A stretch of DNA of 64,000 bases from Streptomyces rubrogriseus (GTDB lineage Bacteria; Actinomycetota; Actinomycetes; Streptomycetales; Streptomycetaceae). Positions within the stretch are counted from its first letter, which is position 1. Each line of letters begins with the position of its first letter. The notes beneath the pieces are model-generated. The model ran no database searches. It was not told where the DNA came from and saw only the letters and a list, made by a program, of their open reading frames with translations. Where the stretch lies: positions 1,736,001-1,800,000 of the forward strand of contig NZ_CP116256.1 of NCBI RefSeq assembly GCF_027947575.1, written 5' to 3'. The translations under genes and the position numbers were made by a program. Shown here in pieces: positions 31,053-47,504 of the stretch.

Positions 31053-31898
31053 TCAGGTCTTCGTACGGAACTTGTGGACGGCGATCGGCGCCATCACCGC
31101 GGTGATCGCCGCCGACCAGCCGAGCGTGATCCACAGGTCGTGCGCGACCGGGCCGCCCACCATCAGTCCGCGCGCCGCGTCGGCGAGCGTGGACAGCGGG
31201 TTGTAGTCGGTGAAGGACTGCAGCCAGCCCGGCATCGACTGCGTCGGCGCGAAGATCGAGGAGCCGAACTGCAGCGGGAACAGCACCATGAAGCCCATCG
31301 CCTGCACGGACTGCGCGTTCTTCAGGACCACGCCCAGGGTGAGGAACACCCACATGATCGAGGAGGCGAACACCGCGGACAGGCCCACCGCCGCGAACAG
31401 TCCGGCCCAGTGGTCGATGTCGAAGCCGACCAGGACGGCGACGATCATCAGCACCGTGGTGGCGAACAGCATCCGGGCCATCTCGACCGCGATCTTCGCG
31501 AAGAGCACCGAGCCGCGCCCGATCGGCAGCGACCGGAAGCGGTCCATGACACCGGAGTTGAAGTCCTGGCTGAAGCCGGTGCCGACGCCCTGGGACAGCG
31601 TCATGCTCATCATCGCGATCATGCCGGGGATCACGTACTGCACATAGCCGTCCTGCCCGCCGCCCAGGGCCTGGCCGATCGACCCGCCGAAGACGTACAC
31701 GAACAGCAGGGTGAAGACGATCGGCATCAGCAGGGCGTCGAACATCGACTCCGGGTCCTGCCGGATCCACAGCAGGTTCCGGCGGACCAGGGCGCCGGTG
31801 TGCCGCACGTGCGCCCGCAGCGAGATCCGCGCGTCGGGAGCGAGCGCGGCAGGGGCGGCGGTGGCGGCTGGAGTGGCTGGAGTGGTGGCGGCGCTCAT
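31053..31898 (-). CDS. ABC-2 type drug export permease (DrrB-like)
   Basis: A 281-aa ABC-2 permease: a 45-residue Ala/Thr-rich start, then LVRRNLLWIRQDPESMFDAL and six hydrophobic helices with PGMIAMMSMTLSQGVGTGFSQD and FPLQFGSSIFAPTQSMPGWL, typical of the daunorubicin-exporter DrrB family. Its ATG overlaps the ATPase stop by 4 bp (ATGA), so the pair form one exporter. The substrate is unknown. Confidence 0.88.
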   Translation of the reverse strand: MSAATTPATPAATAAPAALAPDARISLRAHVRHTGALVRRNLLWIRQDPESMFDALLMPIVFTLLFVYVFGGSIGQALGGGQDGYVQYVIPGMIAMMSMTLSQGVGTGFSQDFNSGVMDRFRSLPIGRGSVLFAKIAVEMARMLFATTVLMIVAVLVGFDIDHWAGLFAAVGLSAVFASSIMWVFLTLGVVLKNAQSVQAMGFMVLFPLQFGSSIFAPTQSMPGWLQSFTDYNPLSTLADAARGLMVGGPVAHDLWITLGWSAAITAVMAPIAVHKFRTKT

Positions 31899-32926
31899 AC
31901 GGCGACCTCCTGGCGGGTGTCGTCGGTGGCCGGGGCGGGGTCCTGCGGGGCACTGGCGCGGTGGCCGGTGAGGGACAGGAAGACCTCGTCCAGGCTGGGG
32001 AGTTCGGTGGTGACGGCGGAGACGGTGATGCCGCGCGCGGTGACCGCGCCGACCACGGCCGTCAGCTGCTCGTCGCTGAGGATCGGCACCAGCACGGCAC
32101 CGCGCTCGGCGTCCACGGTGGAACTGGCGAGCCCGGTGATGCCCAGCTCGTCCAGGTAGGCGGCGAGCGGGCGCAGTTGCAGCGGGTCGGCCGGGCGGAC
32201 CCGCAGGGTGCGGCCGCCGACCTTGGCCTTCAGCTCCTCGATGCCGCCGTTCGCGATGACCTTGCCGCGGTCCACGACGGTCAGCTCGGAGGCGAGCTGC
32301 TCGGCCTCCTCCATGTACTGGGTGGTGAGCAGCACGGTGACACCGTCGCCGACCATGCGCTTGACCTCGTCCCACACCTCGTTGCGGGTGCGCGGGTCGA
32401 GACCGGTGGTGGGCTCGTCCAGGAACAGCACGGCCGGGTGCCCGATCATGGAGGCGGCCAGGTCGAGCCGGCGCCGCATGCCGCCGGAGTAGGTGGACGC
32501 GGGCCGCTTGCCGGCCTCGGTGAGCGAGAACCGCTCCAGCAGCTCGTCGGCGCGGGTGCGGGCGTCCCGGCGGGACAGGTCGAGCAGCCGGCCGATCATG
32601 TAGAGGTTCTCCCAGCCGGGGAGCTTCTCGTCCACGGAGGCGTACTGCCCGGTCAGCCCTATGACGCGGCGCAGCTGCCGCGGCTGCCGTACGACGTCGT
32701 ACCCGACGACGTGCGCCTGGCCGGAGTCGGGGGTGATGAGGGTGGACAGGATGCGTACGAGGGTGGTCTTGCCGGCGCCGTTCGGACCGAGCACGCCCAT
32801 CACGGTGCCCTCGCGCACGTCCAGGTCGACGCCGTCCAGCGCCTTGGTCTCGCCGTAGTGCTTGACCAGCCCCCGCACGGTGACCGCGCTGTCCGCGGCC
32901 CGGGGGATGTCGTCGATTCGCTTCAT
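31895..32926 (-). CDS. Drug-export ABC ATPase (DrrA-like)
   Basis: A 343-aa ATPase of the DrrA group. It has Walker A GPNGAGKTTLVRIL, the Q-loop GLTGQYASVDEKLPGWENL, signature YSGGMRRRLDLAASM, Walker B VLFLDEPTTGLDPR, H-loop LLTTQYMEEAEQ, and the extra C-terminal domain with the GITVSAVTTELPSLDEVFLSLTGH family end. In other members the C-terminal domain helps drive assembly with DrrB. It is the first gene of a two-gene operon, upstream of the permease. Confidence 0.9.
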   Translation of the reverse strand: MKRIDDIPRAADSAVTVRGLVKHYGETKALDGVDLDVREGTVMGVLGPNGAGKTTLVRILSTLITPDSGQAHVVGYDVVRQPRQLRRVIGLTGQYASVDEKLPGWENLYMIGRLLDLSRRDARTRADELLERFSLTEAGKRPASTYSGGMRRRLDLAASMIGHPAVLFLDEPTTGLDPRTRNEVWDEVKRMVGDGVTVLLTTQYMEEAEQLASELTVVDRGKVIANGGIEELKAKVGGRTLRVRPADPLQLRPLAAYLDELGITGLASSTVDAERGAVLVPILSDEQLTAVVGAVTARGITVSAVTTELPSLDEVFLSLTGHRASAPQDPAPATDDTRQEVAV

Positions 32927-35460: not shown

Positions 35461-36696
35461 ATGCCCCTGGCCCTGCTCGCCCTTGCCGTGGGCGCCTTCG
35501 GCATCGGTACCACCGAGTTCGTGATGATGGGCCTGCTGCCCGACGTCGCGGACGACCTGGGCATCTCCATCCCCACGGCCGGCCACCTCGTCTCCGCCTA
35601 CGCGCTCGGCGTCGTCATCGGCGCCCCGCTGCTCGCGGCGGCCACGACCCGGATGTCCCGCCGCGCCGTCCTGATCGCCCTGATGGCGCTGTTCGTGGTG
35701 GGCAACGCCCTGTCGGCCGTCGCCCCCGGCGAGATCTCCCTGCTCGCCGCCCGCTTCGTCAGCGGCCTGCCGCACGGCGCCTTCTTCGGCGTCGGCGCGG
35801 TCGTCGCCACCGGCATGGTCGCGCCGGAACGCAGGGCCCGCTCCGTCTCCCTGATGTTCCTCGGCCTCACCGTCGCCAACATCGTCGGCGTCCCGGCCGC
35901 CACCGCCATGGGCCAGCAACTCGGCTGGCGGGCCACCTTCCTCGGCGTGAGCGCGATCGGCGTGGCGGCGATAGCGGCGCTGGCCTTCCTGATCCCGCGC
36001 GACAGCGCCCCCGCCCCCGCCACCGGCCTGCGCGGCGAACTGGCCGCCCTGCGTTCCCTGCCCGTGTGGCTGGCGCTCGGCACGACGGTCGCGGGCTTCG
36101 GCGCGCTCTTCGCGGCCTACAGCTACATCACGCCGATGCTGACCGACGCCGCCGGGTTCGCCGAGACCAGCGTGACGCTGCTGCTGGCCCTCTTCGGCGT
36201 CGGCGCCACCGCGGGCAACCTGCTGGGCGGCCGCCTGGCCGACCACTCCCTGCGCGGCACCCTCTTCGGCGGCCTCGCCTCCCTCGTCGTGGTCCTCGCC
36301 CTGTTCCCCCTCCTGATGCGTACGCCGGTCACGGCGGCCGCGTCGGTGGCCCTGCTCGGCATGGCCGCCTTCGTCACCGGCTCGCCCCTCCAGCTGATGG
36401 TCATGGAGAAGGCCGCCGCGGCCCCCTCCCTGGCCTCCTCCGCCAACCAGGCCGCCTTCAACCTCGCCAACGCGGGCGGCGCCTGGATCGGCGGCCTGGC
36501 CCTGGCCGCCGGATTCGGGGCCACCTCCCCGGCGACGGCGGGCGCGGCCCTGGCGGTCCTCGGCCTCGCGGTCGCGGCCACGGCACGGGCGGTGGACCGC
36601 CGCCGCGCGGCCCTCGCCCCGGCTCCCGGCCGCGTGGTCGCGGGCCACGTGCCGGACTCCGACCGGGCCGCATCCCACGCCGGAGTGACGGACTGA
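35461..36696 (+). CDS. DHA1-family MFS efflux transporter (Cmx/AraJ-like)
   Basis: A 411-aa, 12-helix MFS antiporter. The opening PLALLALAVGAFGIGTTEFVMMGLLP is diagnostic of the AraJ/PbuE/Cmx branch, which includes chloramphenicol exporters of actinomycetes. It also has SAYALGVVIGAPLLAA and a loop ATTRMSRRAVLI. The ATG follows GAAAGGCGAGACC. A symmetric 17-bp element lies upstream. Export of chloramphenicol or a related drug is possible by family but not shown. Confidence 0.87.
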   Translation: MPLALLALAVGAFGIGTTEFVMMGLLPDVADDLGISIPTAGHLVSAYALGVVIGAPLLAAATTRMSRRAVLIALMALFVVGNALSAVAPGEISLLAARFVSGLPHGAFFGVGAVVATGMVAPERRARSVSLMFLGLTVANIVGVPAATAMGQQLGWRATFLGVSAIGVAAIAALAFLIPRDSAPAPATGLRGELAALRSLPVWLALGTTVAGFGALFAAYSYITPMLTDAAGFAETSVTLLLALFGVGATAGNLLGGRLADHSLRGTLFGGLASLVVVLALFPLLMRTPVTAAASVALLGMAAFVTGSPLQLMVMEKAAAAPSLASSANQAAFNLANAGGAWIGGLALAAGFGATSPATAGAALAVLGLAVAATARAVDRRRAALAPAPGRVVAGHVPDSDRAASHAGVTD

Positions 36697-37629: not shown

Positions 37630-37847
37630 ACCGCGTCACCTCAGCCTCGGAAGCCCCCGGTCCCGTCTGGTTCAAGAGCAGCTACAGCAGCAGCGGAGAC
37701 GGCAACGACTGCGTCGAGGTCGCGATAACCCCCGCCACCATCCACATCCGCGACTCCAAGCGCCCCGACGGCCCCCGCCTCGCCGTCGAATCGGCGACGT
37801 GGACGACGTTCGTGGCCTGGCCGGGCGCGGTCAGTCCTCGGGTTTGA
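37626..37847 (+). CDS. DUF397-domain partner protein
   Basis: A 73-aa DUF397 protein with the family pattern VWFKSSYSSSGDGNDCVEVA, then IHIRDSKRPDGPRLAV, then WTTFVAW. It overlaps the XRE gene by 4 bp, so the two are translated together. In known pairs DUF397 proteins modulate or bind the WhiJ-like regulator. Its 3' end overlaps the converging membrane-protein gene by 17 bp. Confidence 0.9.
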   Translation: MNRVTSASEAPGPVWFKSSYSSSGDGNDCVEVAITPATIHIRDSKRPDGPRLAVESATWTTFVAWPGAVSPRV

Positions 37848-38508
37848 TCTTCGAGGCCACGAAGAGCAGTCCGGCCGTTGCCGCGATGAGGACTCCGGCC
37901 AGTTCTTCGTAACCGGTGAAATAGACGACGGGGACGGCGAGCCCGCAGGCTGCCCCGAGCAGCTCGAAGGAGCCCCCGATCAGCCGCCGGGGGCGATTCG
38001 CGGGCGGAGGGTGATGGGGGTTGGGCGGGCTTCGCCAGTAGTGGAGAGGGCCCGCCCTGGGCTTCCAGCCGTTCGCCCGGAGTTCCAAGTACTCCGGGTG
38101 GTGGCGGGCGTAGCCCAAGCGGCGGGGCGCCAGGCGCTGCCACGGCAGGCGGCCCAGGCGGATCGCGATCCATACGAGCCCCGGCAGACAGGCGACGGCC
38201 GCCCAGATGGCCGCGACCACCCGCTCCCCGGTCGTAGGCGACAGGATGCCCAGCAGCCGGTCCAGCTGGCCGCTGGCGGCGTAGGCGATCAACGCGGCCA
38301 GGGAGAGCACCGCCGCGGTCCGGTCCAGCTGGTGCCCGGTGTGGCAGCGGGCGCAGCGGGGCACGGACACGGTTTCCATCCGCCAGGTGGAGCGCAGGAC
38401 GATGATGAACGGGGTCATGGTGGTGTCCGCGTCCCTGTGCAACCCCAGGACGTGGTCGTGCCACGACGGTGGAGTCTCCTCCCCGCAGAACCAGCACTCC
38501 CGCACCAC
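37831..38508 (-). CDS. Membrane protein with N-terminal zinc-ribbon-like cysteines
   Basis: A 225-aa protein. The N-terminus has two CxxC pairs (CWFC at 5-8 and CARC at about 52-55) that could bind zinc. Several hydrophobic segments follow: TAAVLSLAALIAYAASG, VVAAIWAAVACLPGLVWIAI, LLGAACGLAVPVVYF and LAGVLIAATAGLLFVA. No named family. The GTG start is preceded by GGGAGGG. Unknown function. Confidence 0.65.
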   Translation of the reverse strand: MVRECWFCGEETPPSWHDHVLGLHRDADTTMTPFIIVLRSTWRMETVSVPRCARCHTGHQLDRTAAVLSLAALIAYAASGQLDRLLGILSPTTGERVVAAIWAAVACLPGLVWIAIRLGRLPWQRLAPRRLGYARHHPEYLELRANGWKPRAGPLHYWRSPPNPHHPPPANRPRRLIGGSFELLGAACGLAVPVVYFTGYEELAGVLIAATAGLLFVASKIKPED

Positions 38509-39479: not shown

Positions 39480-39515
39480 ACCCGGGCCCCGGACACGGTG
39501 GTCCGGGGCCCGGGT
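39480..39515 (-). terminator. Strong hairpin downstream of the double-glycine peptide gene
   Basis: ACCCGGGCCCCGGAC and GTCCGGGGCCCGGGT form a perfect 15-bp stem around a 6-base loop, starting 22 bp past the peptide stop codon. It should end or stabilise the short peptide transcript and isolates it from the MBL gene. Confidence 0.75.
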
Positions 39516-39537
39516 GTGGTGCGGGGCTGCCGTCGGG

Positions 39538-39762
39538 TCAGACGCTCGTCGTGTGGGCGTGGGCCGCCGCACCGCCGAAGGGCGCCGAGACGCCGAGACC
39601 GCCGGTGAGGGCGAACGGGCCGGACTCCGCGTGGAGGCCGGCGGCGAACGCGCCGTCGCCCGCGACGAGGGCCGCGCCCGCGGTGAGGCCGATGCCGCCG
39701 GACACCTGGTCCAGGTCCGCGTCGGAGATCTCGGCCGTTTCGACCTGGGGGACAGTGCTCAT
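39538..39762 (-). CDS. Putative ribosomal peptide precursor with double-glycine leader (74 aa)
   Basis: A 74-aa peptide. Residues 1-23 form an acidic leader (ETAEISDADLDQVSGG) ending in Gly22-Gly23, with the DxDxVSGG form recognised by bacteriocin-type peptidase-exporters. The presumed 51-residue product is Gly/Ala-rich with Thr/Ser and a His-rich end (GGAAAHAHTTSV), and has no cysteine, so it is not a lanthionine peptide as such. The ATG has an AAAGGAAAG site. A 15-bp-stem hairpin follows, so it is transcribed as a single-gene unit. No modification enzyme or C39 transporter is within several kilobases. It could be a bacteriocin-like peptide, a signal, or a small envelope protein. Confidence 0.65.
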   Translation of the reverse strand: MSTVPQVETAEISDADLDQVSGGIGLTAGAALVAGDGAFAAGLHAESGPFALTGGLGVSAPFGGAAAHAHTTSV

Positions 39763-40162
39763 GGCAGGTCTTTCCTTTCGTGGGGAAGGGGAGCGGTGCG
39801 GTACGCACGTCCGTCGACCGGAGTCGGGGCTCCGGCGAGGGCCGTCGGCGTGCCGCGCGCACCGATCAAAGCACGGGGCCGAACGGCCCACCATCGCCGA
39901 GCCGCTGCCCGCCACTGCCCGGCGCCGCCGACTTCACCGGTGTGTGAATGCGGTCGGAGAAAGCGTCCGGATCTTCACGCCATCCCCTGGGGCAAAGGGC
40001 TCTTCGGCGCCCCGGCGCGCGCGGTCCGCCCAGTGAGCGGTGACCGCGTCGCGACGGTGCGACCGAGCGATGAACACTGTGGAGATTCACGGCCTTTCCG
40101 GGACCGATCCGCGGCCGGGCCCCGGCCCACGGGGGTGTGACACTTCAGCACCCCCGTCGGCC
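39763..40162. other. 400-bp intergenic region upstream of the peptide gene
   Basis: No convincing gene. It holds the peptide promoter region. TTCAC and GTGAA at 39933-39948 form an inverted repeat around CGGTGT, about 170 bp upstream of the peptide start, and could be an operator. The remainder is non-repetitive. Confidence 0.4.
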
Positions 40163-45851: not shown

Positions 45852-47213
45852 CTACAGCACCGGCAGCGACTTCCGCAGCTCGAAGGCGGTGACCTGGGAG
45901 CGGTACTCCTCCCACTCCTGGCGCTTGTTGCGGAGGAAGAAGTCGAAGACGTGTTCGCCCAGGGTCTCGGCGACCAGGTCGCTGCGCTCCATCAGGGCGA
46001 GGGCCTCGCCCAGGTTCTGGGGGAGGGGCTCGATGCCCAGGGCGCGGCGCTCCGCGTCGGAGAGGGCCCAGACGTCGTCCTCGGCGCCCGGCGGGAGTTC
46101 GTAGCCCTCCTCGATGCCCTTGAGACCGGCGGCGAGGAGGACGGCGTAGGTCAGGTACGGGTTGGCGCCGGCGTCGATGGAACGGACCTCGACACGGGCC
46201 GAACCGGTCTTGCCGGGCTTGTACATCGGGACCCGGACCAGGGCCGAGCGGTTGTTGTGGCCCCAGCAGATGTAGGAGGGGGCCTCGCCGCCCGCGCCCG
46301 CCGTGCGCTCGGTGCCGCCCCAGATGCGCTTGTAGGAGTTCACCCACTGGTTGGTGACCGCGGAGATCTCGGCGGCGTGGCGCAGCAGGCCCGCGATGAA
46401 GGAGCGGCCCACCTTGGAGAGCTGGTACTCCGCGCCGGACTCGTAGAACGCGTTGCGGTCGCCCTCGAAGAGCGAGAGGTGGGTGTGCATGCCCGAGCCC
46501 GGGTACTCCGAGAACGGCTTCGGCATGAAGGTGGCCTGGAGACCCTGCTCCAGGGCGACCTGCTTCATGACCAGGCGGAAGGTCATGACGTTGTCGGCCG
46601 TGGAGAGCGCGTCCGCGTAGCGCAGGTCGATCTCCTGCTGGCCGGGGGCGCCCTCGTGGTGGGAGAACTCCACCGAGATGCCCATCGACTCCAGCATGGT
46701 GATCGCCTGGCGGCGGAAGTCCATGCCGATGTTCTGCGGGGTGTGGTCGAAGTAGCCCGAGTTGTCGGCGGGGGTCGGGACCGAGCCGTCGACCGGCTTG
46801 TCCTTCAGCAGGAAGAACTCGATCTCCGGGTGGGTGTAGAAGGTGAAGCCCAGGTCGGAGGTGCGGGCCAGGGCGCGCTTGAGGACGTAGCGCGGGTCCG
46901 CGAAGGACGGCGACCCGTCCGGCATGAGGATGTCGCAGAACATGCGGGCCGTGCCGGGGGCCTCCGCGCGCCACGGCAGGACCTGGAAGGTCGACGGGTC
47001 CGGCTTGGCGATCATGTCGGACTCGTAGACCCGGGCGAAGCCCTCGATCGCGGAGCCGTCGAAGCCGATGCCCTCGTCGAAGGCCTGCTCCAGCTCGGCC
47101 GGGGCCACGGCGACGGACTTGAGGAAGCCCAGCACGTCCGTGAACCACAGGCGTACGAACCGGATGTCGCGCTCCTCCAGCGTCCGGATCACGAACTCCT
47201 GCTGCTTGTCCAT
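45852..47213 (-). CDS. glnA2: Glutamine synthetase-like enzyme, GlnA2 type (probable gamma-glutamylpolyamine synthetase)
   Basis: A 453-aa type I GS-fold ligase. GS blocks: GFDGSAIEGFARVYESDM, FFLLKD (metal Glu), HHEGAPGQQEIDLRYADAL, KPFSEYPGSGMHTHLSLF, NSYKRIWGG, NRSALVRVP and ARVEVRSIDAGANPY. The adenylylation tyrosine region (NLYDLP in GlnA) is absent: the matching stretch is DDVWALSDAERRALGIEPLP, so GlnE should not modify it. I recognise it as the orthologue of S. coelicolor SCO2241 (glnA2), reported from memory as a gamma-glutamylpolyamine synthetase. The second ATG (47213, behind GGGGAAGCGGAAG) is preferred; one 15 bp upstream also exists. Confidence 0.85.
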   Translation of the reverse strand: MDKQQEFVIRTLEERDIRFVRLWFTDVLGFLKSVAVAPAELEQAFDEGIGFDGSAIEGFARVYESDMIAKPDPSTFQVLPWRAEAPGTARMFCDILMPDGSPSFADPRYVLKRALARTSDLGFTFYTHPEIEFFLLKDKPVDGSVPTPADNSGYFDHTPQNIGMDFRRQAITMLESMGISVEFSHHEGAPGQQEIDLRYADALSTADNVMTFRLVMKQVALEQGLQATFMPKPFSEYPGSGMHTHLSLFEGDRNAFYESGAEYQLSKVGRSFIAGLLRHAAEISAVTNQWVNSYKRIWGGTERTAGAGGEAPSYICWGHNNRSALVRVPMYKPGKTGSARVEVRSIDAGANPYLTYAVLLAAGLKGIEEGYELPPGAEDDVWALSDAERRALGIEPLPQNLGEALALMERSDLVAETLGEHVFDFFLRNKRQEWEEYRSQVTAFELRKSLPVL

Positions 47214-47504
47214 CTTCCGCTTCCCCATCCTTGCTGGTCAGGCCGCCTGTCTCCGGTACGGCGGGAGGCGGTCGGGCACTTGAGCATCACACCACAGCGC
47301 CGTTACGTGTGCGTTGCGGACCTCCGTCGGCCGGCCCACCCCGTGACCGCAGCGTAGAGGCCACCTGTTCGATCGGGCCATTCCGGGGATCCGGCCGGGA
47401 CGGATCCGGTGCCCGCCCTACGAAGGACGGGCCCCGCGCCATTACGATCAGCGGACCTCACGCTCGTCCGTTCCCCAGATTCCTTCCCAGAAGGGCAACA
47501 CCCC

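Follow-up and report, generated by a model that had tools for sequence, protein, structure and literature searches.

The closest described systems are the NHLP and N11P precursor families, which Haft, Basu and Mitchell (2010; PMC2887384) reported with an exporter of the TIGR03794, TIGR03796 and TIGR03797 families. In the accessible part of that account, a genome holds one to 12 precursors, modification genes need not adjoin the precursors, and Streptomyces is named solely as a genome-size comparison and in the references. The same pages print a length of 23 for the Gram-positive leader family TIGR01847, which we compare, along with TIGR03949, under the class II double-glycine bacteriocins. A 2026 study of Streptomyces melanosporofaciens STM-2 (PMC13047742) describes, in its accessible portion, a short gene with the best database match 'type A2 lantipeptide', located in a predicted RiPP-like region together with a Peptidase_C39 gene. 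Finally, two bacteriocin clusters listed in the accessible part of the S. lividans reannotation paper are not matched to the exporter system considered here.

Here we analyse a small gene within a window of 64,000 nucleotides (the whole stretch of DNA under analysis; Table 1) and a four-gene exporter unit elsewhere in the same genome. Judged from sequence, the two very probably belong to one system, in which a single NHLP-type exporter would serve dispersed, co-regulated precursors, cleaving them after SGG in trans, with the window gene encoding one of its substrates. Two subunits of the exporter score above the TIGR03796 and TIGR03797 cut-offs, as in the NHLP/N11P systems, and the 13 residues that precede the predicted cut (EISDADLDQVSGG) are similar to motif 2 of those families (ELSDEQLDAVAGG, ELSDEELEAVAGG) as given in the accessible text of PMC2887384. 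Unlike the NHLP/N11P leaders, for which lengths of 87 and 69 are printed in that text, the leader here has 23 residues and is without a nitrile-hydratase or Nif11 part; no modification enzyme was recognised among the genes examined around the peptide and the exporter, the core is not Cys-rich, and the dispersed genes share a near-private promoter-like element. The window precursor has no TIGR03793 or TIGR03798 match in NCBIfam up to an E-value of 10. With class II bacteriocins the system shares a short acidic leader ending in GG, of the length given for TIGR01847, and an expected export by a C39-ABC protein; it differs in scoring below the family cut-offs, in its anionic core, in the lack of any immunity gene seen and in an NHLP-type exporter with two ABC subunits. 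Matches to the CTB family bacteriocins (NF038167) are weak and confined to the leader, in three of eight precursors (E-values 0.0037, 0.058 and 0.78); these scores lie below the 32-bit cut-off and the core is different.

The STM-2 gene offers a likeness within the genus, as it too combines a short peptide gene and a C39 gene in one predicted region (PMC13047742, in the part accessible), and by analogy it is probably an exporter-linked member of this peptide family. The accessible text derives the lantipeptide assignment from the database name and mentions neither dispersed members nor a shared element. That name does not fit the peptides studied here, because no lanthionine synthetase was recognised near either gene and 60 of 65 cores are free of Cys. 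The exporter is of a kind already described for NHLP/N11P precursors; for the shared leader, the dispersed members and the element, our searches of open-licence PMC papers turned up no account.

Table 1. Coordinates of the features of the window gene, its flanking sequence and the C39 domain of the distant exporter.
Feature	Position	Strand	Basis or remark
74-aa precursor peptide gene	39538..39762 (ATG 39762, stop 39540-39538)	minus	Open reading frame and homologues
23-aa leader MSTVPQVETAEISDADLDQVSGG	39694..39762	minus	19-leader alignment, profile match E 3.0e-16; predicted cleavage after Gly-Gly
51-aa core IGLTAGAAL...HTTSV, Gly/Ala-rich, net charge -2	39541..39693	minus	
GAAAGGA, ribosome-binding-site-like	39773..39779	minus	Read from sequence, about 10 bases upstream of ATG
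Promoter-like element TGG-N17-TGCTTTGATC	39864..39893	minus	Common to window gene and exporter-linked peptide gene
12-mer CGTGCTTTGATC within the element	39875-39864	minus	Also upstream of exporter-linked peptide gene
15-bp hairpin with 6-base loop, 3' of the stop	39480..39515	minus	Probable transcription end (no U-run)
Peptidase_C39 match	C1:3558298-3558693	minus	1.78 Mb from the window gene

The 74-amino-acid open reading frame is a real gene, since it is conserved in other species and its amino-acid changes are constrained in the leader. Two observations support the ATG as the start, namely the GAAAGGA stretch that precedes it and the homologues, whose starts coincide with it. The first-pass annotation had described the product as an acidic double-glycine leader followed by a core without cysteine, and this description is confirmed: the leader comprises 23 residues and the Gly/Ala-rich core also contains neither Lys nor Arg (net charge counted from D, E, K and R). 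Among 65 distinct peptides that we collected, the length to the GG is 23 residues in 64. The 65 cores, most of which are of the type found beside the exporter, all have a net charge between -1 and -4; Lys or Arg occurs in six of them, Cys in five and Trp in none. Their composition is 18 percent Gly, 18 percent Val, 15 percent Ala, 12 percent Leu and 12 percent Thr, with D+E at 5 percent and K+R at 0.2 percent. None of eight precursors compared with NCBIfam, and neither of two compared with Pfam, reaches a cut-off; an Rfam search gave no match, and PADLOC gave none for four proteins.

The leader and the core evolve differently. The first-pass annotation had suggested asking whether homologues keep the leader while varying in the core, and this contrast was found in eight orthologues: mean identity is 0.86 in the leader against 0.66 in the core, and pN/pS is 0.37 against 0.82. 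The reading frame is intact in all eight.

The hairpin that follows the stop codon was also correctly described, with all 15 pairs of its stem present. The 81 bases folded give a z-score of -4.2, and none of 200 shuffled sequences is equally stable. By eye, a similar stem lies 3' of the stop in five of seven orthologues (it is absent in those of G214 and L001). A simple terminator scan reports no site at the hairpin because a U-run is missing; the hairpin is a probable transcription end.

No C39 transporter and no modification enzyme had been seen near the gene. This was borne out when 15 other genes between 31 and 47 kb of the window were compared with Pfam: no C39 transporter and no enzyme recognisable as peptide-modifying is among them. 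These neighbours include a metallo-beta-lactamase-fold protein, an FBP zinc-finger protein, an HTH_31/DUF5753 and DUF397 pair, two MFS transporters, two TetR regulators and an ABC2-type transporter pair (31053-32926; ABC2_membrane and a DrrA-like ATPase) that contains no peptidase; the gene at 37831-38508 is without a Pfam match. In five of seven relatives, the peptide gene sits between homologues of an MFS transporter (35461-36696) and a glutamine synthetase (45852-47228), and in the other two (L001 and G276) one of these flanks is seen. The genes between the flanks turn over, and the window-type peptide has no constant inner neighbour. Close relatives differ strongly in gene content between 36700 and 45850 but retain the peptide gene, and the interval looks like an insertion hotspot. 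A contig scan for relatives of the window gene returned at least one locus, L001, a Streptomyces record in which the MFS, phosphatase-like and ketopantoate-transferase neighbours are 92 to 96% identical to those of the window.

The first-pass annotation had also suggested looking for a C39-type ABC gene elsewhere in the genome. The 8.41-Mb genome, assembled as one contig, holds a single Peptidase_C39 (PF03412) match (129 bits, cut-off 22), and the gene that carries it adjoins a peptide gene with the same leader. The exporter unit (locus L069) encodes, in order, a 71-amino-acid peptide (hereafter peptide A), a 238-amino-acid HlyD-like protein, a 740-amino-acid C39-ABC protein and a 937-amino-acid second ABC protein. 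The C39-ABC protein passes TIGR03796 (1024.8 bits, cut-off 853.3) and the second ABC protein passes TIGR03797 (896.3 bits, cut-off 709.4). The best family for the HlyD-like protein is TIGR03794, at 119.1 bits and below the cut-off of 156.2, and its position in the unit fits; the gene start is probably called short here, since the protein has 268 amino acids in many relatives. Peptide A begins MNSTPQVETVEISDADLDNVSGG, with the same leader as the window gene and a different, Val/Thr/Gly-rich core; such cores are very alike across species. Searched with a profile built from 19 leaders, the genome yields these two genes alone (E-values 9.5e-17 for peptide A and 3.0e-16 for the window peptide), the next match being at 0.17.

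In 21 exporter loci of our choosing, the HlyD, C39-ABC and second ABC genes are present in all 21 and a peptide gene is called at the head in 20; no other gene in these loci is constant beside them. At 2 to 10 kb past the exporter stand genes for a PrmA-like methyltransferase, a haem-oxygenase-like enzyme and an FMN dehydrogenase, none of which is constant. Comparison with Pfam revealed no lanthionine synthetase and no cyclodehydratase among 15 genes of the exporter region, and likewise none among the 15 genes compared in the window. Adjoining the exporter unit (L069, 12568-16580) are genes for a trypsin-like protease with an alpha-lytic prodomain and a GAF/PAS/SpoIIE phosphatase, both of which are common, non-constant neighbours among the exporter loci examined; it is speculation that a sigma-factor pathway reading the 12-base element could be a target of the phosphatase. 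A subtilisin-inhibitor-like (SSI) gene (L069, 1894-2325) is located about 4 kb past the exporter unit, less than 11 kb from the protease gene, and is seen in several other exporter loci as well.

The window gene and the gene for peptide A share a promoter-like element. The genome has two exact copies of the 12-mer within it, one ahead of each leader gene, and no exact copy of the reversed control; six further sites carry one mismatch, and no leader gene was found after any of them. That the two upstream regions, of 400 bases each, have 12 bases in common is not striking when taken alone, as such a match arises in 30 of 500 simple shuffles; the case is carried by the genome-wide and genus-wide counts. 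In 295 genomes of the same genus, exact 12-mers number 205 against 6 for the reversed control (our sum over the genomes). They fall in 159 genomes: 153 of the 218 in which the leader profile matches and 6 of the 77 others, which leaves 65 leader genomes with no exact copy. Among 30 exact sites, which are those we fetched rather than a random draw, 26 are followed by a leader gene (24 recognised by script; L152 and L161 by reading). The remaining four (L136, L137, L138 and L142) precede no leader gene, look like chance and were set aside.

The spacer after TGG is 18 bases in all 36 exporter-type rows and 17 (13 rows) or 18 (9 rows) in 22 of 24 other rows; this split was made by core pattern, and some exporter-type rows fall under the others. 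The CTTTGAT part is missing from 8 of 69 collected upstream regions. In the orthologues of the window gene, the element is unchanged in seven of eight and altered in G199. Apart from the element, the regions upstream of the two genes in this genome share no identical stretch of more than 9 bases, which makes it unlikely that they derive as a whole from one duplicate. A sigma-70 promoter scan gave no site. A one-mismatch element (CGTGCGTTGATC; G000:C1:2061141-2061152, L128) lies about 140 bases upstream of an open reading frame for a 92-amino-acid TPR-repeat-like protein, and probably reflects chance.

Across the 295 genomes, the leader profile matches in 218 and C39 in 231: 216 genomes have both, 2 the leader only, 15 C39 only and 62 neither. 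This co-occurrence (Fisher P = 1.5e-46, phylogeny ignored) is in part trivial, since the exporter unit itself includes a leader gene. All 99 genomes with at least two leader matches have C39. The two genomes with a leader match and no C39 are G001, which is 79% complete, and G070, with a leader match at an E-value of 0.0038. A class-wide draw of 394 genomes gave 31 leader matches, of which 29 are in the same genus and two, both weak (3.1e-4 and 5.8e-4), are outside it; at least 11 same-genus genomes of this draw have no leader match. Plasmid records contain no match for the window peptide and one for peptide A, in Streptomyces chartreusis, with no annotation at that spot. Among viral contigs, 56 stretches fit the pattern and none was confirmed as a relative.

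The identity of the leaders, the lone C39 match, the shared element, the co-occurrence and the contrast between leader and core together argue for export of the window peptide in trans. In such a mechanism, the promoter TGG-N17/18-TGCTTTGATC would activate the window gene and the four-gene exporter unit jointly. The common 23-residue leader (EISDADLDxVSGG) would be recognised by the C39 domain of this NHLP-type exporter and cut off after Gly-Gly during export, and the exporter would release a 51-residue, Gly/Ala-rich anionic peptide. Promoter activity, recognition in trans, cleavage and secretion are steps that we infer from the sequences. Processing in trans by a C39 peptidase-transporter, one of the possibilities raised by the first-pass annotation, is thus well supported, short of proof, by the lone and distant C39-ABC gene with its same-leader peptide. 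Our guess is that the product is a secreted peptide that acts for the producer or its kin, at the surface or as a signal, and is not a broad cationic killer.

More broadly, and tentatively, most Streptomyces may possess a private regulon made up of a constant NHLP-type exporter, one or more unlinked precursors with a common leader and different anionic cores, and a near-exclusive element. Its products might be unmodified, undescribed peptides that serve the development, surface or communication of the producer. The system ties scattered orphan small genes of Streptomyces, a genus studied for antibiotics and development, to a common exporter and a common promoter-like element, and the leader and element combined offer a simple way to list the members.

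As to what the product does, a developmental or cell-surface peptide, hydrophobic and built from small residues, perhaps aggregating, is a possible reading that we hold with some doubt; peptide A would be its main form and the window peptide an accessory. The near confinement of the leader to the genus (29 of the 31 matches in the class-wide draw), the alike cores of peptide A across species and the Gly/Val/Ala/Leu/Thr-rich composition are consistent with it, as is a very weak match to the fibril chaperone FapA (18 bits, cut-off 100). Against this reading, no match exceeds a cut-off in the libraries used, and an AlphaFold model built with two sequences is uninformative, with a mean pLDDT of 52 and nothing beyond a suggested leader helix.

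A signal sensed by the producer or its kin seems unlikely. The promoter-like element, almost private to the leader genes, the dispersal of the members and the small, anionic products would suit such a role; however, the constant neighbours at window-type and exporter loci include no receptor or histidine kinase, and a core of 51 residues is long for a peptide pheromone.

We likewise consider it improbable that the gene encodes a class II-type bacteriocin that leaves through the same exporter and kills related strains, possibly as a two-peptide pair with peptide A. The core drifts, a single exporter is common to two different peptides of the same genome, and the probable exporter-linked member carries the database name 'type A2 lantipeptide' (PMC13047742, in its accessible part), all of which would agree with a bacteriocin. 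There are also weak matches to TIGR03949 (lactobin A/cerein 7B), for the window precursor (E-value 0.031; 14 bits, cut-off 21.5) and for another core type (E-value 0.004), but all lie below the cut-offs. The cores are anionic in 65 of 65 peptides and nearly free of Lys and Arg, and no constant gene that might confer immunity stands beside the window-type peptide or the exporter unit. A bacteriocin had been offered as an alternative at the outset, and no test favours it. A classical cationic bacteriocin is therefore disfavoured, which leaves a surface or developmental peptide, a signal or an unusual bacteriocin. That the window gene is a decaying duplicate without function, as the nearly relaxed pN/pS of its core might suggest, is very improbable given the low pN/pS of the leader, the element unchanged in seven of eight orthologues, the frame intact in all eight and the place kept between the same two flanks in five of seven relatives despite the turnover between them.

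The peptides that carry the leader extend beyond the two found in this genome. In six genomes (L078 to L083), distant relatives lie directly downstream of Tad/Flp pilus genes on the same strand, with the element present; a functional link to these pilus genes was considered and set aside, as the window-type genes lie elsewhere. Three further loci (L088, L162 and L163) encode a third core type (NPHASLVAGPTAVSSADVLAQL...) with the same leader and element, so that there are at least three core classes: the window type, the exporter type and this third type.
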